The translations under genes and the position numbers were made by a program. This document shows, piece by piece, positions 25,505 through 57,200 of a stretch of DNA of 64,000 nucleotides (position 1 is its first letter; each line of letters begins with the position of its first letter). The notes beneath the pieces were generated by a model. The model did not search any database and was not told the origin of the DNA. It saw only the letters and a program-made list of their open reading frames with translations. This stretch comes from Tubiluchus corallicola. Lineage: Eukaryota; Priapulida; Priapulimorpha; Priapulimorphida; Tubiluchidae. The stretch covers positions 432,001 to 496,000 of the forward strand of contig JAQGDQ010000070.1 in the NCBI GenBank assembly GCA_030141605.1, in the 5' to 3' direction.

Positions 25505-26573
<1,069 letters not shown>

Positions 26574-29024: not shown

Positions 29025-29192
29025 TTATCGCCGAAAAAAGAAATTTCTGAATCCAGCTCGTACAGAAGTAGGAAATTGCACATGTGAGCCATCAGTGATT
29101 GGTTCTAAAGCTGTACATCGTGAATTATGCACAATGATGTCGTCGACTAGTATCTGCCCTCGTTGACCGATCACATAACCGGCAAATAATAT
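29025..29192 (-). CDS. Mucin-MAM protein, exon 5 (end of MAM domain, stop)
   Basis: Fifty-five residues and a TAA stop follow the acceptor TTTTTAG at 29194-29193. The reading is ILFAGYVIGQRGQILVDDII then VHNSRC, which matches the closing MAM pattern (F-g-G, g-i-a-DDI, then a final Cys). A short basic tail ends FRNFFFRR. Phase 0 fits exon 4. Confidence 0.88.
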   Translation of the reverse strand: MLFAGYVIGQRGQILVDDIIVHNSRCTALEPITDGSHVQFPTSVRAGFRNFFFRR

Positions 29193-30016
29193 CTAAAAAC
29201 AAATAAAAAAATCATTCGTATAATTATCATGGTCGTCACCAGCAGCAACGGTGGCAACAGAATCAACAAGAAAAATTATAACAGTGATGACGGGGATGAT
29301 AGAAAAGATGATAATAATAATGCTGCTCCTGTTGTATCATCAATTCATTATCCTCATCTTTGTCATTCCGTACCTTGGTTTCTTTTGGTTAAAATTTACA
29401 TAGGATAATATAAGATGAGACAATTTATTTATATTATCTTGTTTTATTACAATTTTGTTATTATTTAGTAATGGTAATAATAATTTTTATTTAAAGTCGG
29501 ATTTTGGATGAACATTAACATGAACAAACCTGCACCTAGATAACAGAGACTATTATTACTCCGATTTTACCCTAAATACCACGCGTCAGACAGAACAACA
29601 ACAGTTTTTAAAGTCTTTAGTATGACTCGGACTTTAGTATTTAGTATTGAACTCACGACTTCCCAAACAGAGAGTGGATGCGTTACCACTCATTTGGTCA
29701 ATTAATCCAATACCTTGTCACACCTTTTTAGCCATTATTAAGTGAGGCATGACAAATTGTTGTAAATAGGTGGAGTTTTAGGTTTTTTGGAAAAATAGTA
29801 TCGCCGCCTTCTTTAGGTCAAAATGGCGAATAAAAAATCCCGCTCTGTCAGTCAGTCTATGTAGAATTCATTCTAGTACATTCGTCTGAAGTTTTATGGC
29901 AATTGAACTAGCAGAGCATAGGACGTTTTTCAAAAAAGTCATCTCCCAACGGCAACAACAGTAAGAACGACATCCAGACGAGTAGATCAAATGTTTCTCT
30001 GCCAAAATGAACTTAC
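29193..30016 (-). other. Intron 4 of the mucin-MAM gene
   Basis: GT-AG intron of 824 bases. It contains interspersed GAT-rich sequence around 29280-29320 and no recognised element. Confidence 0.75.
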
Positions 30017-30160
30017 TTTGTAGTCATAGAATGCTCGAATTGGCAATCGAACAATCTGCCAAATACTTTCTTGCTCGTTAGATGCCGCTTGTGCAGCCCA
30101 TAACTGATTGTGCTGCGGCAAGCCATCCTGCTGCAACATTACCCGTAAACTACGCTGACC
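30017..30160 (-). CDS. Mucin-MAM protein, exon 4 (middle of MAM domain)
   Basis: A 144-base exon, phase 0 at both ends, with acceptor TTTATTTCAG and donor AAA/GTAAGT. It reads GQRSLRVMLQQDGLPQHNQL, then LW at WAAQ, then ESIWQIVRLPIRAFYDYK. This matches the MAM stretch that gives G-L-V-L, the W of lW, and W-V-lp before the last strand. Confidence 0.88.
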
Positions 30161-31159
30161 CTGAAATAAAGAATGTGATAATTAATGCTTAAAAACTTTT
30201 AAAAGAAATGAATAAAAATAGAAAAGACCTACTGGAAAGTAAAAGAAGAAATGACTGATGATGATGATGGCAACGATTTTTTATACAATTCGATAGACTG
30301 GAATTGTGATAAAAGTGATGAAGACAATGATGATGCTGATGAGCATGGCGACAACAATGATGCTAATGGCAACAATAAAAATTATGCTGATGGCGAGGCA
30401 ATGATGTTGATGCAAAAAGTCAAATTGCGAAGAAGAGAAGACAGGAAAAGACGAAATGATTAATTCACAAAGTGTTCTAGTAAAGACGTAGTCACTCATG
30501 ATTAATATACAGCAATTACCTCTTCAACTTGTTAAATTTTAATGTTATTCGCAAGTAGATAGATTTTACTATATCAGAAAGATTAAGTTTTAACGCAGTA
30601 ATGTTCATTTTGATTTATTCTGAAAAATTCTGCATAATGCGTGCGTGCTTCGACTCCCTCTATTCTGCCTGAACAATATCACGGTGTCATTTACGAGGTC
30701 ACGGCGGTATGGCTTTGATCGCGAGAAGTACAAGGTTATCAATAAGAATGGATCAATTAATTACCTATGATCAATGCGTTGAAGCAGAGGAAGTGTTATA
30801 GAAGTGAGAGGAACGGCGTGAATGAAGCTGGTGGGACAAAGAAGAAGGAACACAGCAGGAGATGAAAGAAAGTAGAATCCAAATACTGTGAATGCTTGTA
30901 AAATAAAATAAGTTAAAACTGCGGAAAGCACTCAAAAATGACCCCAAAATTAATATTTAGCAAAAAGCAAAAGTGTTCGGAACTGCACGCTCTAGTGTCA
31001 ATTTTAGAATCTAAAAATAAATAACTGCAAAATATTTCATCAGTTTAGATTAACACATATAAGGACTTCTTAAAATTTACTCCTATTTACATGCTATTTG
31101 CTTTTAAATAGTCTAGAATTAGAAAAGAAATATGCAGTTTGTAGACAACTTTTGATTTT

Positions 31160-31424
31160 AACAAAAAACAAACATATATACATACAAACATAAATACATA
31201 CAAACAAAGAAACAAGCATACAAACAGACAAAATAATTGAGAAAACTTCATTTTAGCGGAAATTCAGTAACCTGGCAATTGGTGAAGTGGACAAACAAAC
31301 ATACACACATGCAAACAAACAGACAGACAGACGGAACAGACAGACAGATAAAATAACCTAAGAAAACTTAACTTTTAGTGAAAAATTCAGCCTCCAGTAA
31401 CCTAGCAGTTGGTGAAACAAAAAC
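31160..31424 (+). repeat. 130-bp period duplication with ACAA/CAGA simple repeats
   Basis: Each copy has a run of CAAA or CAGA units followed by AAAACTT, TTTTAG, AATTCAG and CAGTAACCT-GCA-TTGGTGAA. The last block starts at 31265 and again at 31395. Copies have diverged. Confidence 0.6.
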
Positions 31425-32740
31425 CAAGATTGCTCAAGTTAAACATTTATACGGTAGAAAAATAAAATCGAATCGCGAGTTTCACATTTGATGCTCTCTT
31501 ATGGATGCTTAACTGTATTAACTAGACTTGAATCAAAATGAGCAGGCCAGATAATCGTGGAAGAGATAAAGCTATAAAGTCGTACAGGCATGTCGTCAGT
31601 CCAAAACTACAAATTTGAGTCCTGCGTCTATCTTTTGATTCTTTCTGTGCCGCAAATATTTATTTTTCAAAAAAGGAAATAATATTGGCTTGGTGTTCTG
31701 TCGTAATAATCAATTATCAAATGATGTGACATTGAATTATAGATTTTGATAGATTTATCAGAATCTATTGTTGTACAGCAGAACTACTGCGCGAATAATG
31801 TACGCCGATTATCTTACTGCTCTAGATAAACGAGATCAGATAAAAGGGAAGCACGAGCAACGAAGCGCCTTAGATATTGCTCTAGATTTCGATAACATTG
31901 ACCGAATATCACACAATTCAGTGTTAATCTTAACAAAAATATATAATTAACAAATATTATAAAGCAAAACTCTGATCAGTTAACAGTTTGCTTTGCGGCA
32001 CTTTCCAATCAGCCGAGCAGCATCACTTGGGGAAGTTCAAGACAATGTCCTCAGAAAAACCAGGAGATCTGTTACTTTAGGGTCTCCTTTTTCGCTCTTT
32101 TGAATAATGTGTTCTCACGATTCTTTCTCACTCGAGTCTAAAAATATCGATGGGTCTACGCACACACTTCATGAGCACCACGTACGACATAGTATAAACG
32201 TTTATTTTTTTATTCATTACAAGTTATTATTATAAGCTTGTAGAATGGTTAAATAAAATTTTAAGGGTCAAAAATAGTAACTGGTACCATTACGTCATAC
32301 TATCAGAGATTCTGTTATTGCATACAATCCTTCAAATTACTCATTATTTTACGCTTACCTTTAGTTAGTGACGGCTTCGCATTTACTTTAACCCTTAGTA
32401 CGCTAAGCTAGAACACATTAATGTTTCAAAGTCCAGTGATTTATTTTTTGGTGATTATTCCAGTGACTGGGCCTATCTTATTTTTTCCTTCTACTAATAT
32501 TAAATAAAAGTACAGCGGCCTTGAAATTTTCAGTTGCGAAAAAAGAAGAACTAACTAGGCCCATAAATTGATTGTTAACAATTTTGATGTTGTCAGGTTG
32601 CAAAACGCCATACCAGTAATTGTTGTGAACTGTCAACTACATGCCTTTCTAAGCTAATTTCAACTCAGTGTCTGGTGGAGAGACTCAGACGAGACTGTAG
32701 TGACATAATCTACTTAACTACCTTTCATCTTTTTCAGGGG

Positions 32741-32872
32741 AGGAATTTGCGTTATCTTCGCACAACCAGGAGAAGATTACCCATATTGTGCGTAGACACG
32801 TCAGGAAGGAATTTATGTTAAATTCGCACAACCAGGAGAATATTACACATATTGTGCGTAGACACGTGCGAA
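32741..32872 (+). repeat. 66-bp tandem duplication with internal hairpins
   Basis: Two copies start with AGGAATTT at 32741 and 32807 and carry CGCACAACCAGGAGAA then CATATTGTGCGTAGACACGT. Each copy has a 7-bp inverted repeat, CGCACAA/TTGTGCG. Confidence 0.85.
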
Positions 32873-33302
32873 GTTTGTCAGCTGTCAGTAGCAACGACAA
32901 GAAAATGAAGAGACGGTTTACATGGAAAAAATTGTCAGGAGTAAGCTCGTAAGTTCTTATTCGCAAGACGCAGCTGAAAAGACACGTTGGCCTAATTTTG
33001 CTTGGACGTCGCGAAAGTACTTATTGTATAGACCTAATAACAAGGAGTTTTTACTAATTTAGTGAATCGTTGAGCACGTAGGCTTGCCAGAGCAGCCCTC
33101 TGCGCTTATTAAAACAAAGTGGGATTGTTGTTAGAAAGAAACAAGAAATTAGAGCAGACAGATTGCAGATTCTAAAGCAAAACCACGATTAAAGTACATA
33201 ATCACGACAATCTCTGAAGAAGGTACATTGCATAACATGATATATCTCGGCAATGGTACACATTAAAAGGTGCAGATCTGTGTAATATCTCACAATACTT
33301 AC

Positions 33303-33427
33303 CGATATTTTATAAGCAAACTGCAAGCATTGCTCTTCGTGAGTTCTCCTCACGTCTGGTGAGCTTGCTACTTCATATAATGTGAACTGGCACCCAGGCG
33401 AAGTAGTGTCCAGACTCAAGAAATGAC
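33303..33427 (-). CDS. Mucin-MAM protein, exon 3 (MAM domain)
   Basis: A 125-base exon, acceptor TTTTACAG at 33429-33428 and donor TCG/GTAAGT. It starts in phase 1 and ends in phase 0. The reading is GHFLSLDTTSPGCQFTLYEV, ASSPDVRRTHEEQCLQFAYK, IS. This is the MAM block G-Y-L-D, then -L-SP, then CL-F-Y. The exon had to be found across a 10.4-kb intron from exon 2. Confidence 0.88.
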
Positions 33428-33734
33428 CTGTAAAATTGAAATCGCAGTATTAAGAATCTTACCTTTTCCTTACTTTTTTAATAGAAATGAGTATTGCTCT
33501 AGAAATTAAAACTTAAACTATGTCGTAAAATAATCGCCTTTGGCCTTTTTCACTATCATCAGCACTTTCATCATTATCAGACTCGTCATTGGCTTCATGA
33601 CCTTCGTCGCCATCATCAACTTGTCAACTTCCGCGGTAAACTTGGAACAGCATAATTGCTGCAACAAAGCCAAACCAACAAACTACAACTGCCATTACTG
33701 CTATATTGTAAGGAATATCTTCACCATAATCAGG

Positions 33735-34030
33735 GCTATTATCGTCATCACCATCATTATCATCATCGTCGCCGCCGCAATCACCGTCACCATCATCATC
33801 GTCGTCGTCGTTATCACCACCATCACCATCATCACCGTCATCGTCACTGTCATCATGACTGCCATCTTCATTATCTTTGTCTTTTGTCTGCGTTGTGGTA
33901 ATGTTATCATTACTACGTTAAATATCATTGTCATCATCGTCATCATTGCTATCACCTTTATTATATTCATCATCTTTCTCTTTTGTCTCCATTGTCGTAA
34001 TATCGTCATTACTACCGTTATATCAGTTTT
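33735..34030 (+). repeat. CAT/ATC trinucleotide-rich repeat
   Basis: Imperfect CAT/CGT units in two blocks (33735-33860 and 33925-34030). The 166-codon Ile/Val/Thr frame over it is a by-product. Confidence 0.85.
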
Positions 34031-34736
34031 TTTATTGTAATGGTTCAATTTGCTATCCAGCTGAAAAGCAAAAGAGAATTCCAGACATCGGTTCATGCAC
34101 CTCCTAGACTACCCTCATGGGTTAATCCTCCTTATGATCACACATCAATGCTTGTTTCTTTGTTTGTCTTGACAATTTTCGCTCTCGTGTCATTGACAAC
34201 TCGTGGGTGTTGGTTTAGTGACTCACGGTGGCAAAAAACTCACCCCAGAACGTCCTAAACCACAGGGAAATTGCCGGGAATGGAATGCAGGCCCTTTATC
34301 CCATTAAACCTCTTCACGAGTAATTACCAACACTTATTTTGTGTGCAGCATCATTTCTGATCTTGCTGGAATTTTGATCTCTAGAAGCTGTCGGTCAGTA
34401 CCTGTCGACATGGCGGCCTAAAACAACCTCCTAAATTGAGGTTTTATATACATATAGAAAATGTATTTACAGCTTCTTTTGAAAAGCAAAGTAGCAACCA
34501 TCTTACAATTATTATTTCACTCAAAACGACCACGTGTACAATTTTCAGAATAAAAAATTTAAACTTGGAGCGTAACTGGGAAGATCATTATACGCATTTT
34601 TGCTACAGTAAGTGCTTAATTTGTACAGTCTTTTGTATGAAATTACTGTGATTATGACAATTTTAGTAACGCCATATTTTGGGGATGAGTAATGTGCCAT
34701 TGTACTTCTCTATGTCATTGTACTTCTCTATGTCAT

Positions 34737-34738
34737 AT

Positions 34739-34781
<43 letters not shown>

Positions 34782-34782
34782 T
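34737..34782 (+). repeat. TTTA microsatellite
   Basis: About eleven perfect TTTA units. Confidence 0.95.
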
Positions 34783-37578
34783 ATGTGAAACATATGCAGC
34801 AAGGGAACTTTAGTAAGAAATATGCGTCAAAGAGATAAAAGGTATAGTTGAATGATAACAATTTATAAAATTTAATGACATCAGGTGCAAAAATCGTAAT
34901 GTTGAAAATGTGATAATTATCATGGCATAACTCGACGTCTATCAACAAAATGCTGAAATTGTTTTTGGTATAAATGTTCGTAAGACTCAATGTGGTCACA
35001 AAGCTGAAGTCGCCGACTGGCCAAAGCTGACCACAAAAAGTGACCAGACCTGCAATTAAAATGACCATTCTAAAAAACTAATCATTTGAAATGTTTCCGA
35101 GGCACGTCTTTGTGACTAAACCATGTCCCAGCATCTTTCTCCATTACAAAACTCTCGCTGTCTTTACTAGACAATGCAACGTGTCACAGAATGGATTTAA
35201 TTCTGTGGTCTAGTGCCTGTTAGTTATTGTAAGACACGTACAAGGTATTTGCGCGTTGATGTTTTATTCGATTAACCCATGAAAATCTGCTACGGGGATC
35301 CAACGAAACCCGACCAGACCGACATAACTTTTGGCGATTCGCTGAACCGCGCAACAGCTAACACTTTTTAGGTGAGGAAGAACAGGTTAAAATTATTACA
35401 ACTTTTAACGATAACGCTTTTAGAAAACGAAAATATTCAAAATCTGTAACTCTTCTGACCGACTCCTACAACAAGTACATGAACTTATGACAGCCAAGCT
35501 ATTGAGTATTTGGAAGAATTCGAGAATCTTCCCAAGTGCCCAGGTTGGAGATAGACACCGAAAAGATTTGCCAATGTGAATGCCGTTTTAAAGTTCATTC
35601 TTGGGCTTTTCGATAGAAACAACTTTCAATTATTCAAACATTAATGTCTTTTTTTATCAGATCCTAATTTATAATAAAGTAATTAGGCCAGTGCATCATT
35701 ATCAAACATTGTCCATGGGTGGGTCACGAGCAATTGTTGAACATGAAACTCGTTACTATCATAAATTACGTCGCATAACAGAGGATGCACAAAATACAAC
35801 AGCACGTAGTTGCCGTCGGATTTGGTGACGCTGATGCTAGGCTTAGCTTTCTGGAGATTTCCGTTAAGATTCCTGGAAGCTGGGAGTTTTCCGCTATCCC
35901 GGTAGCAGAAAACGACGATTACAACTTTCGTTTTCATCCAGAACATCCCGGGTTTGATCACAGCAATAAGTAAACACGGCGGAGGTTTTGCGTTTTCTTT
36001 GCCTACAATGAGAGGAGGTGAATCACCCCAGCTCTGCACACATTCACCAATATGCAAGGTTTTTTTCAACTGCAACCTCTGACACTACTTTTGTCTGATG
36101 AGCTAGGACCCATTGTTCGCCTCACTAAACTGTCTTGGCAAACGTTTTCTTCTAAACTGACTGTATCAATACGATTGTTCCGTCCATTATGTGGGGAGGT
36201 GGCAACAGTGGTGAACGCCCGCAAGATTCATCTGCCTGGCTTATCTATCAAACAAATTATGTTCGCATTTTTTCTTAAAATGTTTGTGCTTTTTTCACAC
36301 TTCCCTACATTATGTTGCTCCATCTTATTATACTAGTCTTTTAAATATTCGTTTCAAACTGCTGCATATTCTCGACTAGACAGCCCGTCTAGCATTATTG
36401 TGGATTAAGACGTCAAGCCGTTGTTATGATAGTAAAAGCCAAACGAAAACAGCTTATTAAATCTACTGTTAAGAAAATACACATAAGAAAATACGCATAA
36501 CTTGTAGTAGTTGCAAGTTAAGAAAGGCTAAGCCTCTTCATTCAGGCCCTGGTCATCGGCCTGGGAATAGACAATGTTCAGTCTATGTCTTAGTTCGTGG
36601 CATATCCGCTAGGGGAGAAAATTAACATCTTTCAAAATTTCGCAGCATGAAACTAAAACTCTCGGTCTAAAGGAAAACATTATCAGCCAAACATTTACAC
36701 AAATTGAAAGGTACACACAAAGAAACAGAACGATCGGAGAGGAAGGTTAAAGGAGTAAATAACAACAGTAAATTTTCTGAAAATTCTGATTGTAATTGGT
36801 GAGGCAAAAAAATCGTCTGCTTAATGACATATGAATTACGTTCTGAGACTTTGTCGAATTTCTAACGAAAAGGCAGTTAATCAACTTCTAACTGCACCAT
36901 TGACAATACATAGGCCTACTCACTTTTCCACTTTCTTACTATTTTCTCACATTTTTTATTTCAAGCATGCTCAAGAGGCTCATCACATTCAGTACATTCA
37001 CTCATTACAAAAGGGCGCATTGTTGTTTAACATGGATTTATTTGAAGAGGAATGCAGTTAAACCACCGTTGAAGAAAGTTCTATAGCGACATTAGCTTTT
37101 AACAATCTGTGAATAAGCAAATTGAACAATTAACCCTAGAACATCAGACGCGGGAGACCACATAGTCTAGTGAAAAGCGGAAATTTACAAAGTTTTCAAA
37201 AACTGAAATCTGACAAGTGACGACTCAATTGAACCAGTCAAGTGCAAAATGCAGGTTGATTTAACAACAAACATGATTTATTAAAAAAAGACTATATTAC
37301 TTGTCAGATATCTGATGTAAACACAATAGATTTCTTGAGCAAGTCAGACTACAGAAAGCTGGAAAACACTTTCTACGAGTGAAGCGATCAGGGAGGTGAA
37401 AAAAGAGGGAAAGAATTAATGGAGCAGCGATGCAGCAGCTGATGTTGCATCCTCTACTACGGCCATTGCTCCCACTGTGTGACTGTTTGGCTGCTGTCAG
37501 TGGCAAGGTCTTATTTTCTGATACCACTAATGTTGCTGTTATTGCTGTTGCCATTGCCGGTGCTGCTGTAGCTCCTGT

Positions 37579-37660
37579 CATTGTATGATGATGATGATGA
37601 TAAAAACCGGTTACATTCACATTGATGACGATGATTGACGAATGTGATGAGATAATGGTA

Positions 37661-37713
<53 letters not shown>

Positions 37714-37766
37714 TGACGATGACGATGACGACGACAACGACGACGGCGACGATGATGATGATGACG
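37579..37766 (+). repeat. GAT/GAC trinucleotide microsatellite
   Basis: A perfect GAT core at 37662-37711 is flanked by GAC/GAT mixtures. Poly-Ser and poly-Ile frames on the minus strand derive from it. Confidence 0.92.
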
Positions 37767-40700
37767 CAGCCACTTACTGCTGACGTTGCTGTTGTTGCTA
37801 CAACTAATACTTCTGCTGCTTATACAGGTTCTGGGTAAGATTTCCCACGCAGTTTGCCACGCTACACTCCCTTATCCAAATACCTGCTTGCATAGCCTAC
37901 TTATTACATTTATAGTGGAGGCAGGACCGGATCCTAGTTTTTTGTCAAAGCGAGTTCTCTAATATACGATGCAAACACGTAGAGTTACCCTAGCCAGATT
38001 CGGATGTATACATAACTACCTTAATCAGATATACAGAGCGTGGCGTATTAAACAACAAATGGGTTAGAAACGGATTTCCTGACCATCATCCATCCATTTA
38101 CTAATCAGGCTATACTTAGTTTCACTCACTAAATACACACTCCGTGACTACTGGGTTAAATCCCTCACACTTAAGTCAAAGAAAAATTAGTTTCATTAAA
38201 GTTTTCTTTCTTTATCTGCCTTCCAATAACTTTTATAGTAGTTTTCTTTCGTTGTTTGCACTTTAGTGGTAATTAATTGGCGTTGTTTCTGTCAGACAAT
38301 ATAATATCAAATTCAACAAGTTTAGGAATAAAAAGATTTTGGGAATTCCTATTGTTGCTTTCTTATCAGCTTGCTTGTAGCAAAACCTTGAATTAACCCA
38401 GATACCGTGAGGCGATACCTTGCCAATAGATTATTTCTGGCTTTTTATTGTCCGCACGCGTACTTAACTCTTTACCAACTTTTAAATTGTGAAATCTTTA
38501 ATCTTATTATAACATAGGCATTCAATACTGTCTCGTGTAACACCTCAATAGCGTGATCAGCTGGTTGGGGTTTGCATAAGGTTGGTATGGTGCTCACGTC
38601 GTATAGTTAATGTAGAAGTACTTACACCCCTGACAATAGACGAAATTGCACCTATGAAAAGAAACAGTAATTGCACCTACCTAAAGTATTTTATATTAAA
38701 TAATGACCTAACTATATATAATCTGTAATTCTCAAACAAACAAAGCTGCGTGATTCTAGGTGCATAAAATACATTTTAACATAATGTATGGTAGCCAATA
38801 CTAGTCATGTGTCATACAAGAACGAAGAAGTACTAAGGCTGTTGTCCCTGGCATGACTCCATACTGATTTTGCAGTAACTCAGCTGATTGATCTACTTCT
38901 TGTTTATATTCTCATGTAAATCTAATCTTCATTTCGTCATCATCACATTCACTTTTCATCGTCATTTCTTTGCCCTAGTATTTCATTCTCCTTAAATATT
39001 TTATTTTGCACATCCTATATCCTTTCTTTCCATTCTGCATTCTGCTTCGGTCTGTACAAATTTACCTTCTTGATCTGAGCTGATGTCCGAATATCTTGTA
39101 AATTTATGAATTTTTTGTTTGTTGTAGGAATTGTGTGTGTATTGTAATGTATGTAACAAGGAACGTAACGTCATGGCACTTTGGGAAAATAAACTAAAGT
39201 AAACTAATAATCTGAACTAATCTAAACTAAACACGAAAATCATTACAAAGAAAACCAAAGTGGTATGCGAGTAGTGTAACTGTTGTGAAATCTTCCACCT
39301 CCTATTATCTATGCAAATAATTTTGAACGATCTGCCTAATTAACCCGTGAAGGATAAGAAAAGCACATCGATCAATCACAAAGTAAAAACAAACCTCAAG
39401 AGCAACGTCCTAAGTAGAAACAAAAGCAACTGAAATAACAAACCAAGAGGAGTCAATTGGAAAAGATGGTCTTTTAAAAGTAGGTTCAACGGTGTATATG
39501 GCGGGGAACTGAAATGGATTGAGAGCAGAAATAAAATGACACTGAGTGAAGCTACCGTTTTCTGTACCGTACGGAAAAAATATCACGCGCGGCGAAGAGG
39601 AAATAATACTGAAAACTCACTGACGGGCATACTACTATGATTGGCACCCCATTTTGTGCAAATGGAATAATAACGGTTTGTTGCGTGCAAAACGGCTGCG
39701 TGTTCTGAGAGATTTGTTCTAACTGTATGGAACTTGATTGCTTTTACCTGTGAGAATACCAGTTGTAAGCAAAATGTTGAAAACTTTCCTTTAATTATTA
39801 TTGCCGCCACGGCAAAGAAAAATCTGCTATGTAATCTGCTGTTGATAGTTAGTATTAATGCTAAATATTTTTTATACAATTCAGTACCATCGATCATAAT
39901 CCAGCGTTTATTAGTAGTTTGAATAGTTGTAGCAAGACCGAAACCTAGCTCATTATCAACGTTGCGCATTTAAAATGAGGTACTGAACCGACAGAGGTCA
40001 GATGTGCCTTAGGCGTGTTCAAATGTGACTGCGTCATATTTCTGCTAAGCAAACAGATAGGACCAGTATGGCGAATAAAACTTCCCAGGGAAAGTACTGA
40101 ACCAAATGCAACCCATCGTTTCACTGACTAGCATTCATAATGTTTGACTTCGGTCGCCAAGCACACACTGTGACTACTCGGATATTCTCTGACCTCAAAA
40201 TGAGCACTGCTAAAAATAAGTACGTTTTAGAGGAAAAGCACAAGTTGTCGAAATGACAGTTAATGTTGTTGCACCTTAGTGCCTAGTTTTGAGTGAGTAG
40301 CAGCTGAATGAATTAATAATATAAGAAAAACAAAAAACATACAATTACTATGAAGATAGGACAGTAACAGTAAACGACGCTGGAATATGCGACACCTATG
40401 TGCGATTTGGTACAGTTAAACATCAATTTTCATTTCTCAAAAAGTAACGTTTACACAATACACTTCTACACAGTGCCGTAGGTGCAATGTGAGTTTTCAA
40501 ATTTTAATCACTAACAAAAGAAAGCATTAATAACGTTTAGTCAGTCGTAAATATAACCCTAGCTATAAAACTTGACAGAAATACAGCTGTAATAATTACA
40601 CATGGGCTTATTATCATACTGAAAGCTTGAGAACGGGTCAAAAGTTTGTTAAAAGCAAAAGCCGCACAAATGTCAAAATAGCCATTCCGAACACAAATTA

Positions 40701-44524: not shown

Positions 44525-47500
44525 ACACTGCTTCATCTGCAACTACGACATTATCACTTATCGCAGTCCTTGTGGCTTCATTAATTTTCTGCGTCAAAAG
44601 AAGATCTGCAGCTGATGCATTGTCGTCACTAGCTTCTTCTTCTTCATCGTCATCGTCGTCATCGTCATCAGCGGTATCGTCATCGTCGTCATCGTCATCA
44701 TCGTCATCAGCGGTATCGTCATCTTTATCGACCTTCACAATTTTCTCTTTCTGTGTCGTCGAGGGTTCAGTAGATCCGGAAGTTCCAGGAGTGGCATCTC
44801 TCTGAAACACTTGGTCTCCCTTCTGCACAAACGTAGTACCTTCAGAAGAAAGTGTTGAGGTTTCAACTGGCTGTGTGGTGTTTTCAACAGATTGCGTAAC
44901 GCCTTCTTCAGAATCAAGTAATCCTAGAAAATTGAGTAAAGCTTGAAGTCTGCTTGAAATGGTAGTCTTTTTAGGTGCCTCTGTTTTCGGAACCGGTGTA
45001 ATTGGCTGTTTACTGGTAGTTTCAGTACTGTCTATCTGCATGGTGCTGGTTAGCTGGATAGTGGAAGTTTCTGCAGTGGTGCCTGAAGAAGTCTGTCTTG
45101 TAGTGTCCTCAACTAGCTTCATTGTAGTTTCTGTTGAAAGCTGTGTTGTAGTTTCCTCAATACGCTGCACTGTTGTTTCTGCTGAAGGATGAGTGGTAGT
45201 GCCATCAACAGGCTGCGTTGTAGTTTCTACTAAAGGCTGTGTTGTAGTGTCCTCAACAGACTGAGTGGTAATTTTTGCTGAAGGCTGTGTTGTAGTGTCC
45301 TCAACAGACTGCACTGTAGTTTCTGCTGAAAGCTGTGTTGTAGTGCCATCAACAGGCTGCATTGTAGTTTCTACTAAAGGCTGTGTTGTAGTGTCCTCAA
45401 CAGACTGAGTTGTAATTTCTACTGAAGGTTGTGTTGTAGTGTCCTCAACAGACTGCACTGTAGTTTCTGCTGAAAGCTGTGTTGTAGTGTCCTCAACAGA
45501 CTGCATTGTTGTTACTGCTGAAAGCTGTGTCGTAGTGTCCTCAACAGACTGCACTGTAGTTTCTGCTGAAAGCTGTGTTGTAGTGTCCTCAACTGACTGC
45601 GTTGCAGTTTCTGCTGAAGGCTGTGTTGTAGTGTCCTCAACAGACTGCGTTGCAGTTTCTGCTGAAAGTTGTGTTGTAGTGTCCTCAACTGACTGCGTAG
45701 CAGTTTCTGCTGAAAGTTGTGTTGTAGTGTCCTCAGCAGACTGCACTGTAGTGTCCGCTGAAAGTTGTGTTGTAGTGTCCTCAGCAGACTGCACTGTAGT
45801 TTCTGCTGAAAGCTGTGTTGTAGTGTCCTCAACAGACTGCACTGTAGTTTCTGCTGAAAGCTGTGTTGTAGTGTCCTCAACAGGCTGCACTGTAGTTTCT
45901 ACTGAAGGCTGTGTTGTAGTGTCCTCAACTAACTGCGTTGCAGTTTCTGCTGAAGGCTGTGTTGTAGTGTCCTCAACTGACTGCGTTGCAGTTTCTGCTG
46001 AAGGCTGTGTTGTAGTGTCCTCAACAGACTGCGTTGCAGTTTCTGCTGAAGGCTGTGTTGTAGTGTCCTCAACAGACTGCGTTGCAGTTTCTGCTGAAAG
46101 TTGTGTTGTAGTGTCCTCAACTGACTGCGTAGCAGTTTCTGCTGAAAGTTGTGTTGTAGTGTCCTCAGCAGACTGCACTGTAGTGTCCGCTGAAAGTTGT
46201 GTTGTAGTGTCCTCAGCAGACTGCACTGTAGTTTCTGCTGAAAGCTGTGTTGTAGTGTCCTCAACAGACTGCATTGTTGTTACTGCTGAAAGCTGTGTCG
46301 TAGTGTCCTCAACAGACTGCACTGTAGTTTCTGCTGAAAGCTGTGTTGTAGTGTCCTCAACTGACTGCGTTGCAGTTTCTGCTGAAGGCTGTGTTGTAGT
46401 GTCCTCAACAGACTGCACTGTAGTTTCTGCTGAAAGCTGTGTTGTAGTGTCCTCAACAGGCTGCACTGTAGTTTCTACTGAAGGCTGTGTTGTAGTGTCC
46501 TCAACTAACTGCGTTGCAGTTTCTGCTGAAGGCTGTGTTGTAGTGTCCTCAACTGACTGCGTTGCAGTTTCTGCTGAAGGCTGTGTTGTAGTGTCCTCAA
46601 CAGACTGCGTTGCAGTTTCTGCTGAAGTCTGTGTTGTAGTGTCCTCAACTGACTGCGTTGCAGTTTCTGCTGAAGGCTGTGTTGTAATGTCCTCAACTGA
46701 CTGCGTTGCAGTTTCTGTTGAAGGCTGTGTTGTAGTGTCCTCAACAAGTTGCATTGTAGTTTCTGCCGCAGTTTGCAAAACTGTCGTGATTTGGCCTGCT
46801 TGCGTTGGCTCAGAAGTAGTCAAACCAAAAAATTTCATGGTAGTTTCCAGCAAAGACGTAAGTGTACTAGAAACAGTAGTTGCTTCAGCTTGTTCTTCCA
46901 CAAGTGGCACGTCTGTAGAAATGACTTCGGCTACAATAGTTGTTGGTGCATCAGTTGTTTCAACTGCAGTGGTTCCTGGTGCTGGAGTTGTCTCTGCAAT
47001 AGTGGTTGTTGGTGCTACAGTTGTTTCTGCTGCGGTAGTTGTCGGTGCCATGGTTGTTACTGCTGCAGTTGCTGTTGGTGCAGTTGCTTCTGCTGCAGTC
47101 GTTGTTGGTGCCACAGTTGTTGTTGGTGCAGTTGTTTCTGCTACAGTAGCTGTGGGTGCTACTGTTCTTTCAGCTGCAGTAGTTGTGGGTGTCACAATTG
47201 TTTCTGCTGCAGTAGTCGTTGGCGCCACAGTTGTTTCTGCTGCAGTTGTTGTTGCTGCTGCAGTTGTTTCTGCTACAGTTGTTGTGGGTGCCACAGTTGT
47301 TTCTGTTGCAGTAATTGTTGGCGCCACTGTTCTTTCAGCTGCAGTTATTGTTCTTGCTGCAGTTGTTTCTGCTGCAGTAGTTGTGGGTGCCACAGTTGTT
47401 TCTGCTGCTGCAGTTGTAGGTGCTACAGTTGTTTCTACTACAGTAGTTGTGGGTACCACTGTTGTGTCTGCTGCAGCTGTTGTTGGTACCACAGTTGTTG

Positions 47501-50500
47501 TGGGTGCTACAGTTGTTTCAGCTACTGTAGTTGTTGGTACCACAGTTGTTTCTGCTACAGTTGTTGTGGGTGCTCCAGTTGTTTCTGCTACAGTTGTTGT
47601 TGGTGCCACAGTTGTGTCTGCTGCTGTTGTTGTTGGTACTGCAGTTGTTTCTGCTACAATAGTTGTAGGTGCTACAGTTGTTTCTACTACAGTAGTTGTG
47701 TGTACCACAGTTGTTTCTGCTGCAGTTGTGTCTGCTAAAGCAGTTGTAGGTGCTACAGTTGTTTCTACTGCAGTTGTTGTTTGTGCCTCAGTTGCTTCTG
47801 CTGCTGTAGTTGTTGGTGCTTCAGTTACTTTTTCTGCAGTAGTTGTGGGCATTACAGTTGTTTCTACTGCAATTGCTGTTGATGTAGCAGTTGTTTCTGC
47901 TGCAGTAATTGTTGGCGCCACAGTTGTTGTTGGTGCAGTTGTTTCTGCTACAGTAGGTGTGGGTGCTACTGTTCTTTCAGCTGCAGTAGTTGTTGGTGCC
48001 ACAGTTGTTTCTGCTGCAGTTGTTGTTGCTGCTGCAGTTGTTTCTGCTGCAGTTGTTGTTGCTGCTGCAGTTGTTTCTGCTACAGTTGTTGTGTTTGCCA
48101 CAGTTGTTTCTGTTGCAGTAATTGTTGGCGCCACAGTTGTTTCTGTTGCTGCAGTTGTAGGTGCTACAGTTGTTTCTGCTACAGTAGCTGTGGGTGCTAC
48201 TGTTCTTTCAGCTGCAGTAGTTGTTGGTGCCACAGTTGTTTCTGCTGCAGTAGTTGTAGGTACCACTGTTGTTTCTGCTGCAGTTGTTGTTGGTACCACA
48301 GTTGTTTCTGCTACAGTTGTTGTGGGTGCTCCAGTTGTTTCTGCTGCTGTAGTAGTTGGTAACACAGTTGTTTCAGTTGCAGTAGTCGTTGGTGCCACAG
48401 TTGTTTCTGCTACAATAGTTGTAGGTGCTACAGTTGTTTCTACTGCAGTTTTTGTTTGTGCCTCAGTTGCTTCTGCTGCTGTAGTTGTTGGTGCTTCAGT
48501 TGCTTCTTCTGCAGTAGTTGTGGGCGTTACAGTTGTTTCTGCTGCAATAGTTGTTGGTACAACAGTTGTTTCTGCTACAGTAGTTGTTTGTGCTGCAGTT
48601 GTTTCTGCTGCTGTACTTGTGGGTGCTACAGTTGTTTCTGCTATAGAAGTGGTGGGTGCCGCAGTTGTTTCTGCTGCAGTAGTTGTTTGAGCCACGGTTG
48701 TTGGAGCTGCAGTTGTTTCTGCTATGGTAGTTGTGGGTTCTACAGTTGTTTCTGCTGCAGTGGTTGTGGCTGCCACAGTTGTTTCCGCTCCAGTTGTTGT
48801 TTGTGCTACAGTTGTTTCTGCTGCAGTTGTTTCAGCTGTGGTAGTTGTTGGTACCACAGTTGTTTCTGCTACAGTTGTTGTGGGTGCTCCAGTTGTTTCT
48901 GCTGCTGTAGTAGTTGGTACCACAGTTGTTTCAGCTGCAGTAGTCGTTGGTGCCACAGTTGTTTCTGCTACAATAGTTGTAGGTGCTACAGTTGTTTCTA
49001 CTACAGTAGTTGTGGGTACTACAGTTGTGTCTACTGCAGTTGTTGTTTGTGCCTCAGTTGCTTCTGCTGCTGTAGTTGTGGGCGTTACAGTTATTTCTGC
49101 TGCGATAGTTGTTGTTGGTACCACAGTTGTTGTGGGTACTACAGTTGTTTCTGCTGCAGTGGTTGTGGCTGCCACAGTTGTTTGTGATCCAGTTGTTGTT
49201 TGTGCTACAGTTGTTTCTGCTGCAGTTGTTTCAGCTGTGGTAGTTGTGAGTGCCATAGTAGTTTCTGTTGCAATTGTTATGGGTACAGTTGCCTCTGCTA
49301 CAGTTGTTCCTGCTGCAGTTGTTGTTGGTGCAACAGTTCTTTCTGCTGCAGTTGCTGTTGGTGCCACAGTTGTTTCTGCTGCAGTTATTGTTTGTGCTGC
49401 AGTTGTTTCTGCTGATGTAGTTGTTGGCGCCACAGTTGTGTCTGCTGCAGTTGTTGTTGGTACTGCAGTTGTTTCTGCTACAGTAGTTGTGGGTGCCACA
49501 GTTGTGTCTGCTCCAGTTGTTGTTTGTGCTGCTGTTGTTTCTGCTACAGTTGTTTCTGCTGCTGTAGTTGTTGGTACCACAGTTGTTTCTGCTACAGTAG
49601 TTGTTGGTGCCACAGTTGTTTCTGCTCCAGTTGTTGTTTGTGCTGCAGTTGTTTCTGCTGCAGTAGTTGTGGGTGCTACAGTTGTTTCTGCTGCAGTTGC
49701 TTCTGCTGCAACCGTTGTTGGTGCTTCAGTTGCTTCTGCTGTAGTAGTAGTAGGTGCCTTTATTATTTCTACCGTAGTTGTTGTTTGTGCTGCAGTGGTT
49801 TCTGCTGCTGTAGCTGTTGGCGCCACAGTTGTTCCTGCAGCAGTTGTTGTTGGTGCCACAGTTGTGTCTGCTGCAGTTGTTGTTGGTACTGCAGTTGTTT
49901 CTGCTACAGTAGTTGTGGGTGCCACAGTTGTTTCTGCTCCAGTTGTCGTTTGTGCTGCAGTTGTTTCTACAGCAGTTGTTGTGGGTGCTACAGTTGTTTC
50001 TGCTGCAACAGTTGTTGGTGCCACAGTTGTTTCTACTCCAGTTGTTGTTTGTGCTGCAATAGTTGTGGGTGCTACAGTTGTTTCTGCTACAGTGGCTGTT
50101 GGTGCTGCAGTTGTTTCTGCTACAGTTGCTTCTGTTGCAACAGTTGTTGGTGCTGCAGTTGTTTCTGCTACAGTTGCTGTGGGTGCTGCAGTTGTTTCTG
50201 CTGCAGTTGCTTCTGTTGCAACAGTTGTTGGTGCTTCAGTTGCTTCTGCTGCAGTAGTAGTTGGTGCTTTTGTTATTTCTTCCGTAGTTGTTGTTCGTGT
50301 TGCAGTGGTTTCTGCTGCTGTAGTTGTTGGCGCCACAGTTCTGTCTGCTGCAGTTGTTGTTTGTGCTGCAATTGTTTCTGCTACAGTAGTTGTGGGTGCT
50401 GCAGTTGTTTCTGCTACAGTTGTTGTGGGTGCTACAGTTGTTTCTGCTACAGTAGTTGTTGGTGCCACAGTTGTTTCTGCTCCAGTTGTTGTCTGTGCTG

Positions 50501-53500
50501 CAGTTGTTTCTGCTGCAGTTGCTTCTGCTGCAACAGTTGTTGGTGCTTCAGTTGCTTCTGCTGCAGTAGTAGTTGGTGCCTTTATTATATCTACCATAGT
50601 TGTTGTTTGTGCTGCAGTGGTTTCTGCTTCTGTAGTTGTTGGTACCACAGTTGTTTTTGCTACAGTAGTTGTTGGTGCCACTGTTGTTTCTGCAGCAGTT
50701 GTTGTTGGTGCCACAGTTGTGTCTGCTGCAGTTGTTTCTGCTACAGTAGTTGTGGGTGCCACAGTTGTTTCTGCTCCAGTTGTTGTTTGTGCTGCAGTTG
50801 TTTCTGCTGCAGTAGTTGTGGGTGCTACAGTTGATTCTGCTGCCGTTGCTCCTGCTGCGCCAGTTGTTGGTGCCACAGTTGTTGTTTGTGCTGCAGTTGT
50901 TTCTGCTGCAGTAGTTGTGAGTGCTACCGTTGTTTCTGCTGCAGTAGTAGTTGGTGCCTTTGTTATTTCTACCGTAGTTGTTGTTCGTGCTGCAGTGGTT
51001 TCTGCTGCTGTAGTTGTTGGCACCAAAGTTGTTTCTGCAGCAGTTGTTGTTGGTGCGACAGTTGTGTCTTCTGCAGTTGTTGTTGGTACTGCGGTTGTTT
51101 CTGCTACAGCAGTTGTGGATGCTACAGTTGCTGTGGGTGCTACAGTGGTTTCTGCTACAGTTGCTGTGGGTGTTACAGTTGTTTCTGCTGCTGTAGTTGT
51201 TGGTACCACAGTTGTTTCTGCTACCGTAGTTGTTGGCGCCACAGTTGTTTCTGCTGCTGTAGTTGTTGGTGCCACAGTTGTGTCTGCTGCAGTTGTTGTT
51301 GGTACTGCAGTTGTTTCTGCTACAGTAGTTGTGGGTGCTACAGTTGTTTCTTCTACAACAGTGGTTTCTGCTGCTGTAGTTGTTGGTGCCACAGTTGTGT
51401 CTGCCGCAGTTGTTGTTGGTGCTGCAGTTGTTTCTGCTACAGTTGCTGTGGGTGCTGCAGTTGTTTCTGCTGCAGTTGCTTCTGCTGCAACAGTTGTTGG
51501 TGCTTCAGTTGCTTCTGCTGCAGTAGTAGTTGGTGCCTTTGTTATTTCTACCGTAGTTGTTGTGTCTGCTGCAGTTGTTGTTGGTACTGCAGTTGTTTCT
51601 GCTACAGTAGTTGTGGGTGCTACAGTTGTTTCTGCTACAACAGTGGTTTCTGCTGCTGTAGTTGTTGGCGCCACAGTTGTTTCTGCAGCAGTTGTTGTTG
51701 GTGCCACAGTTGTGTCTGCTGCAGTTGTTGTTGGTACTGCAGTTGTTTCTGCTACAGTAGTTGTGGGTGCTACAGTTGTTTCTTCTACAACAGTGGTTTC
51801 TGCTGCTGTAGTTGTTGGTGCCACAGTTGTGTCTGCCGCAGTTGTTGTTGGTGCTGCAGTTGTTTCTGCTACAGTTGCTGTGGGTGCTGCAGTTGTTTCT
51901 GCTGCAGTTGCTTCTGCTGCAACAGTTGTTGGTGCTTCAGTTGCTTCTGCTGCAGTAGTAGTTGGTGCCTTTGTTATTTCTACCGTAGTTGTTGTGTCTG
52001 CTGCAGTTGTTGTTGGTACTGCAGTTGTTTCTGCTACAGTAGTTGTGGGTGCTACAGTTGTTTCTGCTACAACAGTGGTTTCTGCTGCTGTAGTTGTTGG
52101 CGCCACAGTTGTTTCTGCAGCAGTTGTTGTTGGTGCCACAGTTGTGTCTGCTGCAGTTGTTGTTGGTACTGCAGTTGTTTCTGCTACAGTAGTTGTTGGT
52201 GCCACAGTTGTTTCTGCTCCAGTAGTAGTTGGTGCCTTTGTTATTTCTACCGTAGTTGTTGTTTGTGCTGCAGTGGTTTCTGCTGCTCTAGTTGTTGGCG
52301 CCACAGTTGTTTCTGCAGCAGTTGTTGTTGGTGGTACCACAGTTGTGTCTGCTGCAGTTGTTGTTGGTGCTGCAGTGGTTTCTGCTGCTGTAGTTGTTGG
52401 CGCCACAATTGTTTCTGCAGCAGTTGTTGTTGGTGCCACAGTTGTGTCTGCTGCAGTTGTTGTTGGTACTGCAGTTGTTTCTGCTGCAGTTGCTTCTGCT
52501 GCAACAGTTGTTGGTGCTTCAGTTGCTTCTGCTGCAGTAGTAGTAGGTGCCTTTGTTATTTCTACCGTAGTTGTTGTTTGTGCTGCAGTGGTTTCTGCTA
52601 CTGTAGTTGTTGGCGCCACAGTTGTTTCTGCAGCAGTTGTTGTTGTTGGTGCCACAGTTATGTCTGCTGCAGTTGTTGGTACTGCAGTTGTTTCTGCTAC
52701 AGTAGTTATGGGTGCTGCAGTGGTTTCTGCTGCTGTAGTTGTTGGCGCCACAGTTGTTTCTACAGCAGTTGTTGTTGGTGTCACAGTTGTGTCTGCTGCT
52801 GTTGTTGTTGGTACTGCAGTTGTTTCTGCTACAATAGTTGTGGGTGCTACCGTTGTTTCTGCTGCAGTAGTTGTGGGTACAATTGTTGTTTCTGCTGCTG
52901 TTGCTGTTGGTGCAGCAGTTGTTTCTGCTGCAGTTGTTGTTTTCGCGTCAGTTGCTTCTTCTGCAGTAGTTGTTGGTGCCACAGTTGTTGCTGCTACAAT
53001 AGTCGTGGGTACATCAGTTGTTTCCGCTGCAGTAGTTATTGGAACTGCAGTTGCAATAGTAGTAGGTGCTGCTGTCGTTTCTGCTGCAGTTGTTTCTGAT
53101 GCCATGGTTGTTGGCGCTTCAGTTGCTTCTGCTGCAGTTGTTTCTGCTGTAGGAGTTGTTAGAGCAGACGTTGTTATTGCTGCTGCAGTTGTTATTGCTA
53201 CAGTTGTCTCTGCTAGAGTTGTTGCTGACACTTCAGTGTCTTCTGCTGCGGTAGTTGTTGGTGCTACAGTTGCTGGTGTTGAAACTACTTCTGCTGCAGT
53301 TGTTGTTGGCGCTTCAGTTGCTTCTGCTGCAGTTGTTTCTGATGCCATGGTTGTTGGTGCTGCAGTAGTTGTTTGTTCTTCAGTTGCTTCAGCAGCAGTA
53401 GTTCCTAGTGCCTCAGTTGCTTCTTCTGTAGTTGTTGGTGCTGCAGTTGTGTCTGCTGCAGTTGTTATTATAGCTACCATTGTTTCTGCAATAGTTGTTG

Positions 53501-56500
53501 GTGCTTCAGTTGCTTCAGCAGCGGTAGTTGTTGGTGCTACAGTTGCTTCTTCTGTAGTTGTTGGTGCTGCAGTTGTGTCTGCTGCAGTTGTTGTTGGTGC
53601 TACAGTTGCTTCTGCTGCAACAGTTGTTGGTGCTTCAGTTGCTTCTGCTGCAGTAGTTGTTATAAATGTGGTTGTTTCAGCTGCAGTTGTTGTTGAAGCA
53701 GCACTTGTTTCTCTTGCCGTAATTGTTAAAGCTTCAGTGGTTTCTGTTGCAGCAGTTGTTGGTAATTCAGTTGCCTCTGCTGCAATAGTTGTTGGCGATG
53801 CAGTTATTTCTGCTGCAGTAGTTGTTGGTGCCATAGTTATTTCTACCATAGTTGTTGTTTGTGCTGCAGTGGTTTCTGCTGCTGTAGTTGTTGGCGCCAC
53901 AGTTGTTTCTGCGACAGTTGTTGTTGGTGCCACAGTTGTTGTTTGTGCCACAGTTGTTTCTGCTGCAGTTATTGTTGGTACTGCAGTTGTTTCTGCCACA
54001 GTAGTTGTGGGCGCTACAGTTGTTTCTGCTGCAGTTGTTGTTTGTGCCTCAGTTGCTTCATCTGCAGTAGTTGGTGGTGCCACAGTTGTTGCTGCTACAA
54101 TAGTTGTGGGTGCATCAGTTGTTTCCGCTGCAGTAGTTACTGGAACTGCAGTTGTTTTTGCTGCAGTAGTGACTGGTGAATCTGTTGTTTCTGTTGCAGT
54201 TGTTATTGGTGATCCGGTTATCTCAGCAACTGTAGCTATTTTTGTTGCAGTTGTTGTAAGTGCTTCGGTTACTTCTTCTGCAGTAGTAGTTTGTGCTGCA
54301 ATGGTTTCTGCTGCTGTAGTTGTTGACGCCACAGTTGTTTCTGCAGCAGTTGTTGTTGGTGCCACAGTTGTGTCTGCTGCAGTTGTTGTTGGTACTGCAG
54401 TTGTTTCTGCTACAGTAGTTGTGGGTGCCACAGTTGTTTCTGCTGCAGTAGTTGTAGGTACAACTGCTGTTTCTGCTGCTGTTGCTGTTGGTGCAGCAGT
54501 GGTTTCTGCTGCTGTTGCTGTTGGTGCAGCAGTTGTTTCTGCTGTAGTTGTTGTTGGTGCCACAGTTGTTGCTGCTACAATTGTTGTGGGTACATCAGTT
54601 GTTTCTGCTACAATAGTTGTAGGTGCATCAGTTGTTTCTACTGCAGTAGTTATTGGAACTGCAGTTGTTTCTGCTACAGTAGTTGTTGGTGCCACAGTTG
54701 TTTCTGCTCCAGTTGTTGTTTGTGCTGCAGTTGTTTCTGCTGCAGTAGTCGTTGGTGTTGGTGCCTCAGTAGCTTCTTCTGCAGTAGTTGTTGGTGCCAC
54801 AGTTGTTTCTGCCACAATAGTTGTGGGTGCATCAGTTGTTTCTACTGCAGTAGTGATTGGAACTGCAGTTGTTTTTGCTGCAGTAGTGGTTGGTGAATCT
54901 GTTGCTTCTGGTGCAGTTATTGTTGGTGCTGCAGTTGTTTCTGGTGCTGTTGCTGTTGGTGCAGCAGTTGTTGTAGGTGCTTCGGTTACTTCTGCTGCAG
55001 TAGTAGTTGGTGACTCAGTTATTTCTACCATAGTTGTTGTTTGTGCTGCAGAGGTTTCTGCTGCTGTAGTTGTTGGCGCCACAGTTGTATCTGCAGCAGT
55101 TGTTGTTGGTGCCACAGTTGTGTCTGCTGCAGTTGTTGTTTCTGCTGCCATGGTTGTTGGTGCTGCAGTTGTTGGTGGTGCTTCAGTTGCTTCTGCTGCA
55201 GTTGTTATTGGCGCTCCAGTTGCTTCTGCTTCAGTTGTTATTATAGCTACCATTGTTTCTGCAATAGTTGTTGGTGCTGCAGTTGTTTCTGCTGCAGTAG
55301 TTGTTGGTGCCTCAGTTACTTCTCCTGTAGTTGTGGGTACCACAGTTGTTTCTGCTGCAGTAGTCATTGATGCCACAGTTGTTTCTGCTGCAGTTGTTGT
55401 TGCTGTTGCAGTTGTTTGTGATGCAGTAGGTGTGGGTGCTACAGTTGTTTCTGCTGTAGTAGTTGTTCGTGCAGCAGTTGTTTCTGCTGCAGTTGTAGTA
55501 TGTTCCGCAGTTGTTTCTGCTGCAGTTGTTGTTGGTGTTTCAGTTGTTTCTGCTGCTGTTGTTGTTGGTATAGCAGTTGTTCCTGCTGCAGTTGTTGTTT
55601 GTGCCTCAGTTGCTTCTTCTGCAGTAGTTGTGGGTACCACAGTTGTTTCTGCTGCAGTAGTCATTGGTGCCACAGTTGTGTCTGCTGCAGTTGTTGTTGC
55701 TGTTGCAGTTGTTTCTGCTGCAGTTGTTGTTTGTGCCTCAGTTGTTTCTGCTGCTGTTGTTGTTGGTACAGCAGTTGTTCCTGCTGCAGTTGTTGTTTGT
55801 ACCCCAGTTGCTTCTTCTGCAGTAGTTGTTGGTGCCACAGTTGTTTCTGCCACAATAATTATGGGTACATCAGTTGTTTCTGCTACAACAGTTGTGGGTA
55901 CCACAGTTGTTTCTGCTGCAGTAGTCATTGGTGCCACAGTTGTTTCTGCTGCAGTTGTTGTTGCTGTTGCAGTTGTTTCTGCTGCAGTTGTTGTTTGTGC
56001 CTCGGTTGCTTCTTCTGCAGTAGTTGTTGGTGCCACAGTTGTTTCTGCCACAATAATTATGGGTACATCAGTTGTTTCTGCTACAACAGTTGTGGGTGCA
56101 TCAGTTGCTTCTTCTGCAGTTGTAGTATGTACTGCAGTTGTTTCTGCTGCAGTTGTTGTTGGCGCTGCAGTTATTTCTGCTACCGTTGTTGTTGGCGCCA
56201 CCGCTGGCATCGCTTGAGTTCCTACATCGTCTGGTATTGGGGTCTCAGTAAGCCTCACTGCTGCAGTTGTTACTGGGGCTCCAGGGGAAGCTACGGTAAC
56301 ACCCGCAGTTTCAAGTGGTTCCCCTGCTGTTTCGGTTTCTGGTAATTCGGTAGGTGGGGCTGCAGTAGTTTCTACTACATCTTCAGCAGACGTAGTTTCT
56401 AGTCCCACTGTCGTCTCTGGCATGGTGGCACTAGTTTGAAAACTGAGTGTTGTCGTTTCTTCTGCATCAGTTTTGGTAGTTTGCATATCTATCGTGCTTG

Positions 56501-57200
56501 CTTGTGACATGGTGCTTTTATCTGGCGCCTGTGATGTAGTTACGTCTACCCCCACGGATGTATTATCACGTTTTTCAAAAGAAAAGTCGTCTGTATCAGT
56601 AGGTTTTGCAGTGCTTACGCTTTCGTCAGGTGTAATATCGCTTTTTGCAGTTGTCGATACAGTTGTTGGGGGTTTTGCTGTCCCAAATAATTTCTGCAGT
56701 TCTCGAATTTCGTTATGTAATTTACGTACCGCATCCTTTAAGTACTGAATTTGTTCTTCGTGGTAATCCGTGGAAGCCTCTAACTGGGTTTGCAAGTGCA
56801 CATTTAGCTGTTTTTCATTATCGAGTTGCGCCTTTAAAAATCGCAACCAAATTCTGGCGTTGTTCACCGACAGATCTTTCACTCGAGTCAAATTAAAAAA
56901 CGCCGTTTGATTGCCTACGTTTTCGACGACCGTTTCATTATCACTCACCATACGATCCTTGAGATCAGTGCACAAATTCACCAATTCTGCATATCCACTT
57001 TTGGCCAGCGCGTCAGTGGCATAATAATTCACAGTTATGTGCGGTTGTTCCAGCCAAAACTCACCGCTGATTTCCTGAGGATTTACGGAATAATAAGAGC
57101 CCGTTTCTCCTGGGTCCCTCCACGTGGGCGCCCCTTGAACACAGGAAAGCGCGCAGAGCAGCCAAAACCACGGCAGCAACACCGGCACCATTTTGGCCAT
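44525..57200 (-). CDS. Giant secreted Thr-rich mucin-like protein, exon 1 of the mucin-MAM gene
   Basis: One 12,676-base exon encodes 4,225 residues and ends GTG T/GTAAGT in phase 1. Joined to four MAM exons it predicts 4,412 residues. Residues 1-23 are a signal peptide (LLPWFWLLCALSCVQG). Residues 24-175 form a unique domain with three N-glycosylation sequons (about residues 88, 97, 103) and a likely coiled coil (about 117-172). A Ser/Thr-rich linker follows. From about residue 330 to 3,420 runs an 11-residue repeat with consensus TTTAAETTVAP. From about 3,480 to 4,020 runs a 16-residue repeat with consensus SVEDTTTQLSAETTVQ. An Asp/Glu tract follows near residue 4,160. The repeat zones lack cysteine and should be heavily O-glycosylated, as in mucins. 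Export to mucus, cuticle or matrix is inferred. No named orthologue is recognised. Repeat length may be affected by assembly. Confidence 0.88.
44635..44732 (-). repeat. GAC/GAT coding microsatellite (poly-Asp tract)
   Basis: In-frame GAT, GAC and GAA/GAG codons give two long Asp runs separated by TA and ending in Glu. The tract lies between the 16-residue repeats and the MAM domain. Acidic runs of this kind can bind calcium; that role is inference. Confidence 0.85.
45140..46765 (-). repeat. Coding 48-bp tandem repeat array, about 34 units
   Basis: The 16-residue unit SVEDTTTQLSAETTVQ repeats with few substitutions and no frameshift. Blocks recur at exact multiples of 48 bases: 432 (45696 and 46128), 576 (45881 and 46457) and 768 (45501 and 46269), which shows nested block duplications. 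Confidence 0.93.
46940..56205 (-). repeat. Coding 33-bp Thr-rich tandem repeat region, about 9.3 kb
   Basis: The 11-residue consensus TTTAAETTVAP repeats with many shortened or variant units and always in frame. Longer blocks have been duplicated again, most clearly a 432-bp block at 51351-52192. The region accounts for roughly 280 units by length. Confidence 0.9.

Follow-up and report, generated by a model that had tools for sequence, protein, structure and literature searches.

A five-exon gene of Tubiluchus corallicola predicted to encode a giant Thr-rich mucin-type protein with a terminal MAM domain

Introduction

Does the very long Thr-rich open reading frame (ORF) found on contig JAQGDQ010000070.1 of Tubiluchus corallicola end at its own stop codon, or is it spliced to four distant small exons that encode a MAM domain? 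We analyzed a stretch of 64,000 nucleotides of this contig (positions 432,001 to 496,000; hereafter the window, within which all positions are counted), for which a sequence-only reading had proposed such a join. Our analysis favors one minus-strand gene of five coding exons, spanning 28 kb, which would encode a secreted mucin-type glycoprotein of 4,412 residues; we assign this model a probability of about 0.85. The gene is a new combination of already known parts and not a new kind of system.

Results

Gene model

Measured from stop to stop, the minus-strand ORF covers 4,235 codons (57221-44514). Its first ATG, at 57200, opens a frame of 4,225 codons in which a predicted signal peptide is followed by approximately 3,900 Thr-rich residues. 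When the five exons are joined, they translate into 4,412 amino acids with no internal stop. The features of the gene model are the following:

57331-57336, minus: TATA-like box TATAAA, some 135 bases before the ATG (consensus match only)
44525-57200, minus: exon 1, coding part (signal peptide, N-terminal region, Thr-rich repeats, acidic linker), ending in phase 1
43911-44524, minus: intron 1, 614 bases, GTAAGT...CAG, with the rival stop 44516-44514 near its start
43785-43910, minus: exon 2, first part of the MAM domain (C-DFE---CGF ... DHT), phase 1 to phase 1
33303-33427, minus: exon 3, second part of the MAM domain (GHFLSLD ... CLQFAYKIS), phase 1 to phase 0
30017-30160, minus: exon 4, third part of the MAM domain, phase 0 to phase 0
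29025-29192, minus: exon 5, which completes the MAM domain (VDDI ... C) and adds roughly 28 C-terminal residues before the TAA stop
28757-28762, minus: first AATAAA polyadenylation signal past the TAA stop (consensus match only)

The exon coordinates and phases given by the sequence-only reading proved right to the base. It had also named a signal peptide and a C-terminal MAM domain, and both were recovered, as a hydrophobic leader and as a full MAM profile, respectively. In addition, we observed a possible N-terminal coiled coil with a lone Cys, a second repeat family, a poly-Asp/Glu linker, and four extra cysteines in the MAM domain.

Four exons complete one MAM domain

The joined C-terminus was compared with the Pfam MAM profile PF00629, the check that the sequence-only reading had suggested. 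It scored 77.1 bits (E = 1.7e-21; cut-off 26.4) and covered the whole profile (1-158 of 158), as expected if the four exons carry consecutive pieces of a single domain. Taken singly, one exon reached 18.5 bits and the other three gave nothing. The closest solved relatives were meprin A alpha (E = 3.7e-6) and neuropilin-2 (E = 1.8e-5). MAM domains have four conserved cysteines, and here Cys 4229, 4236, 4301, and 4383 line up with the cysteines of meprin A alpha; four additional cysteines, at 4246, 4252, 4258, and 4280, lie in the same domain. The protein shows no hydrophobic C-terminal anchor, the top 19-residue window starting in the last 80 residues reaching 0.95 on the Kyte-Doolittle scale, and by this measure lacks the transmembrane segment or anchor of a membrane mucin.

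Proposed splicing of the Thr-rich exon to the MAM exons

Whether the Thr-rich frame and the MAM domain belong together depends on the donor at 44524. There exon 1 ends in TGT|GTAAGT in phase 1, 8 bases ahead of its own stop codon, so that the consensus phase-1 donor proposed in place of the stop at 44514 is indeed present; unspliced, the frame ends in VCKY* (stop codon 44516-44514). Exons 2 to 5 are each preceded by an AG acceptor; exons 2, 3, and 4 are followed by GTAGGT, GTAAGT, and GTAAGT, and exon 5 closes with TAA. We ranked these sites with a generic splice matrix among all AGs (3,996) and GTs (3,593) on the minus strand of the window. The acceptors of exons 2 to 5 ranked 8, 67, 29, and 25, and the donors at 43784, 33302, and 30016 ranked 10, 26, and 49; these ranks, together with the matching phases and the uninterrupted frame, agree with the clean splice sites first noticed by eye. 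Eleven GT sites fall within 44760-44514, three of them in phase 1, and only that at 44524 is a GTAAGT, the others being GTGACG and GTGATA. The motif GTAAGT occurs 21 times on the minus strand of the window, and three of these stand at exon ends of the gene model; by chance, about 0.01 phase-1 GTAAGT would be expected within the terminal 90 bases of a reading frame. The agreement of donor, acceptor, and MAM domain exceeds chance.

The most direct alternative is that the mucin ends at the stop 44514, either because no splicing occurs or because intron 1 is alternatively retained, and that the MAM exons form a separate small gene. Such a gene would need its own start. The frame of exon 2 contains no in-frame Met back to the preceding stop, leaving the MAM exons without an in-frame start of their own, and in intron 1 the 19 ATG-to-GT combinations in phase 1 offer weak first exons only, none of them with a signal peptide recognizable by eye. 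As to polyadenylation signals, neither AATAAA nor ATTAAA is found between 44514 and 43910, and the first such signal past the TAA stop (29025) lies at 28762, 263 bases on. Moreover, the phase of the mucin donor is the one that the MAM acceptor requires. Pfam scans of the minus-strand frames in 29193-33302 and 33428-43400 gave no family above cut-off. Phase, missing Met, weak rival first exons, Pfam blanks, and polyadenylation signal placement together support the predicted mucin-to-MAM join indirectly.

Introns of other MAM exons were examined for shared positions. The genome (343.5 Mb in 2,344 contigs) was searched exon by exon for MAM domains at E up to 0.001, which gave 62 matches, spread over five other contigs (52 on contig C1737), and none in the window. 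The sequence-only reading had warned that the distant MAM exons would be easily missed, and this outcome (0 of 62 matches) bears the warning out: the gene escapes an exon-by-exon domain search, in keeping with the low scores of its single MAM exons. The case shows how annotation can overlook the adhesion head of a giant mucin or take it for a separate gene. As a single-sequence query against the genome, the MAM end retrieved nothing but its own four exons at E up to 1. For the comparison of introns we used the best 8 of the 52 matches on C1737, 4 of 4 on C1080, 2 of 3 on C457, and 1 of 2 on C1772, with C1691 left out. An intron at profile position ~43 stands at the start of all eight C1737 exons, in phase 1, as in our gene, in five of them; it is also in phase 1 in both C1080 exons beginning there and in both C457 exons. 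The phase-0 intron at ~131 is common to L002 and L005 on C1737 and to L016 and L017 on C457. Separately, we observed that the C1737 region 199203-305531 (L001-L008) gathers 52 of the 62 listed MAM matches in more than 100 kb; L001 and L003 also run through LDL-receptor class A-like motifs, and the region is perhaps a giant MAM/LDLa gene or a cluster.

Several observations weigh against the five-exon model, a prediction from the DNA sequence. The decisive donor at 44524 ranks just 221 of 3,593 with the generic matrix, because its three exon bases are poor despite GTAAGT as the six intron bases. Two of the start codons in intron 1 have recognizable donors, GTGAGT for ATG 44111, in the right phase though coding for Met alone, and GTGAGC for ATG 44307, with nine codons. 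For first exons beyond 57200 that would bypass exon 1, the analysis covered Pfam domains over 57300-63000. Among the other MAM exons, the intron at ~43 is apparently in phase 2 in three of the eight on C1737; of the seven C1737 exons that could be scored at ~131, L001, L003, and L007 have no intron there, and L006 and L008 apparently stop short of it. None of the other MAM exons compared showed the middle MAM intron (~82/83, phase 0); near it, C1080 has a phase-1 intron about 6 residues later and L018 an acceptor at ~75 in phase 0. The weak exon bases of the donor and the intron 1 ATG with its GTGAGT donor, like the unspliced stop just 8 bases past exon 1, are what a separate MAM gene has in its favor. 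This closeness of the stop means that retention of intron 1 would cost the mucin only its MAM domain. Set against the missing start, signal peptide, and polyadenylation signal, we regard a mucin that stops at 44514 as unlikely.

Slightly less probable still is that the MAM domain is joined to the mucin and that further small exons, in the long introns or beyond, add other protein parts. The introns are long, short exons are hard to spot, and no single MAM exon exceeded 18.5 bits. Exons inside the MAM domain are unlikely, since the four exons cover its profile end to end, and the Pfam scan described above, blank above cut-off in 29193-33302 and 33428-43400, argues against additional domains there (43401-43784, 43911-44524, and 26001-29024 lie outside it).

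The Thr-rich repeat zone is probably coding

Within the five-exon model, most of the protein is a long tandem-repeat zone rich in Thr. Residues 191-4150 contain 38.1% Thr, 2.9% Ser, and 6.7% Pro, so that the composition is that of a mucin-type zone, though Ser and Pro are low. The 4,151 residues that separate Cys77 from the MAM domain (Cys4229) are free of cysteine. The zone and the linker that follows it consist of:

46926-56195, minus: Thr-rich repeats of 11 residues, degenerate, with the consensus APTTTAAETTV (33-base unit and its multiples)
45093-46766, minus: 35 tandem 16-residue repeats of the type AETATQSVEDTTTQPS (48-base unit)
44619-44729, minus: poly-Asp/Glu linker, limits approximate

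Alternatively, the region could be a non-coding satellite whose frame is open by chance, and repeats of 33- and 48-base units would fit this. Long open frames are indeed present on both strands: a plus-strand frame of 2,508 codons (48691-56217) runs antisense to the repeats, and we tentatively attribute it to their codon make-up. When 290 of the 11-residue units were simulated under neutrality (200 runs), stops averaged 10.8 and never numbered fewer than 2, against 0 in the real frame. Nonsynonymous divergence (dN) averaged 0.161 and synonymous divergence (dS) 0.395 among the 11-residue units (3,000 random pairs of 172 units), a difference in the direction of constraint, though choosing the units for similar amino-acid sequence biases dN downward. 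The 16-residue units tell against a coding zone, as they are without visible constraint (dN 0.139, dS 0.149; 595 pairs). Since the signal peptide and a non-repeat region share the frame of the repeats, and the simulated stops are missing, a chance-open satellite appears very improbable.

The N-terminal region

The N-terminus of the predicted mucin comprises two parts:

57132-57200, minus: signal peptide, residues 1-23, MAKMVPVLLPWFWLLCALSCVQG (cleavage site guessed by the -3/-1 rule)
56670-57131, minus: residues 24-177, free of repeats, containing a single Cys (77) and perhaps a coiled coil (~112-172)

The five most hydrophobic 19-residue windows of the whole protein start at residues 1 to 5. 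In a single-sequence structure model, residues 112-142 and 148-172 are helical, at a mean predicted local distance difference test score (pLDDT) of 37.9, and the best heptad register places hydrophobic residues at 62% of a and d positions. Seven Pfam families matched within residues 1-216, none reaching its cut-off; several bear the names of helical or coiled-coil proteins. A coiled coil at ~112-172 is possible on the basis of this modeling; the low pLDDT and the sub-cut-off level of the seven matches count against it. A genome search with the N-terminal 178 residues returned no close copies besides itself; the next match (E = 0.48) was a coiled-coil-like frame on contig C215, which we take to resemble citron kinase.

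Discussion

Comparison with known proteins

In general layout the predicted protein resembles secreted gel-forming mucins, which have a signal peptide and, encoded by a single giant exon, a very large zone of Thr-rich tandem repeats. Gel-forming mucins also carry VWD, CysD, or cystine-knot domains. No Pfam match to any of these was found in the first 216 or the last 187 residues, and none of them can lie between residues 77 and 4229, because there is no cysteine there. With these cysteine-rich domains missing, a gel-forming mucin is unlikely. Meprin A alpha and neuropilin-2, the best solved relatives, share the same domain by sequence; they are a protease and a receptor, respectively, whereas here the MAM domain stands at the end of a mucin and contains four additional cysteines.

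Zonadhesin and zonadhesin-like proteins resemble the predicted protein in uniting MAM domains and mucin-type repeats in one extracellular protein (PMC1325057). According to the same source, zonadhesin proper in fish genes begins with two MAM domains, continues with mucin and closes with several VWD domains; the salmon zonadhesin-like protein has VWD domains, two MAM domains, mucin, and VWD; and that of zebrafish has three MAM domains, with short mucin-like stretches on either side of the first, followed by VWD (PMC1325057). Unlike these, the protein described here has a single MAM domain that comes last, after the mucin zone and before the stop, and no VWD domain was found in the minus-strand stretches scanned; it does not have the zonadhesin layout. 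In coral skeleton and octopus skin mucus, MAM/LDL-receptor proteins and mucin4-like proteins occur in the same secretion or matrix, as separate proteins with other domains, and in the available parts of these reports none is described as a mucin ending in MAM (PMC4890752, PMC10138644). No published mucin ending in a MAM domain was found in the open-licence literature, judged by titles and abstract openings, which is weak evidence of absence. What the gene adds is this MAM-mucin combination, with a single MAM domain in last place and no VWD.

Proposed function

A secreted mucin-type glycoprotein is the likely product, and its source is probably a protostome. In this genome a full-length bantam microRNA match (55.9 bits, E = 1.2e-8), although under the gathering score of 61, points to a protostome, bantam being a marker of that group. 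COX1 was not detected in the assembly, by a search whose control succeeded in 8 of 14 named genomes, and the molluscan haemocyanin family yielded no match, a result that does not demonstrate its absence. Its mucin and MAM exons would be joined in the cell by splicing. The Thr-rich zone may be densely O-glycosylated and so form a stiff, extended rod; mucin rods extend by 0.2-0.25 nm per residue, and this one could approach a micrometre. Cys77 and the possible N-terminal coiled coil may link chains, the Asp-rich linker may bind calcium, and the terminal MAM domain may bind the same or another surface protein. Combined, these properties would make the protein a long tether in mucus or extracellular matrix, a role to which its sequence features lend an even chance. 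A demonstrated tethering role would make it a candidate for the structural proteins that build invertebrate mucus or glue. Rather more doubtful is the full picture of a lineage-specific secreted tether, with a disulfide-linked coiled coil, a glycosylated rod of about a micrometre, a calcium-binding acidic hinge, and a MAM head, which would act as a bouquet-like multivalent adhesive in protostome mucus or matrix.

Neighboring features in the window

Rfam gave nothing at gathering score over the whole window. Other features observed were the following:

4915-6078, minus: frame with CATIP_N (ciliogenesis-associated TTC17-interacting protein, N-terminal domain), E = 2.7e-83
2280-2900 and ~982-1134, minus: FGE-sulfatase (sulfatase-modifying factor) pieces, profile 2-63 and 80-130, with a leader-like start on the first frame
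16077-17699, minus: Lys-rich frame of 541 codons, no Pfam match at E up to 1, GTAAGT at 16077
19835-20305, minus: frame of 157 codons, one stretch of it rich in Gly, His, and Tyr; no Pfam match at E up to 1
24073-24266: two tandem copies of a 95-base unit, 96% matches

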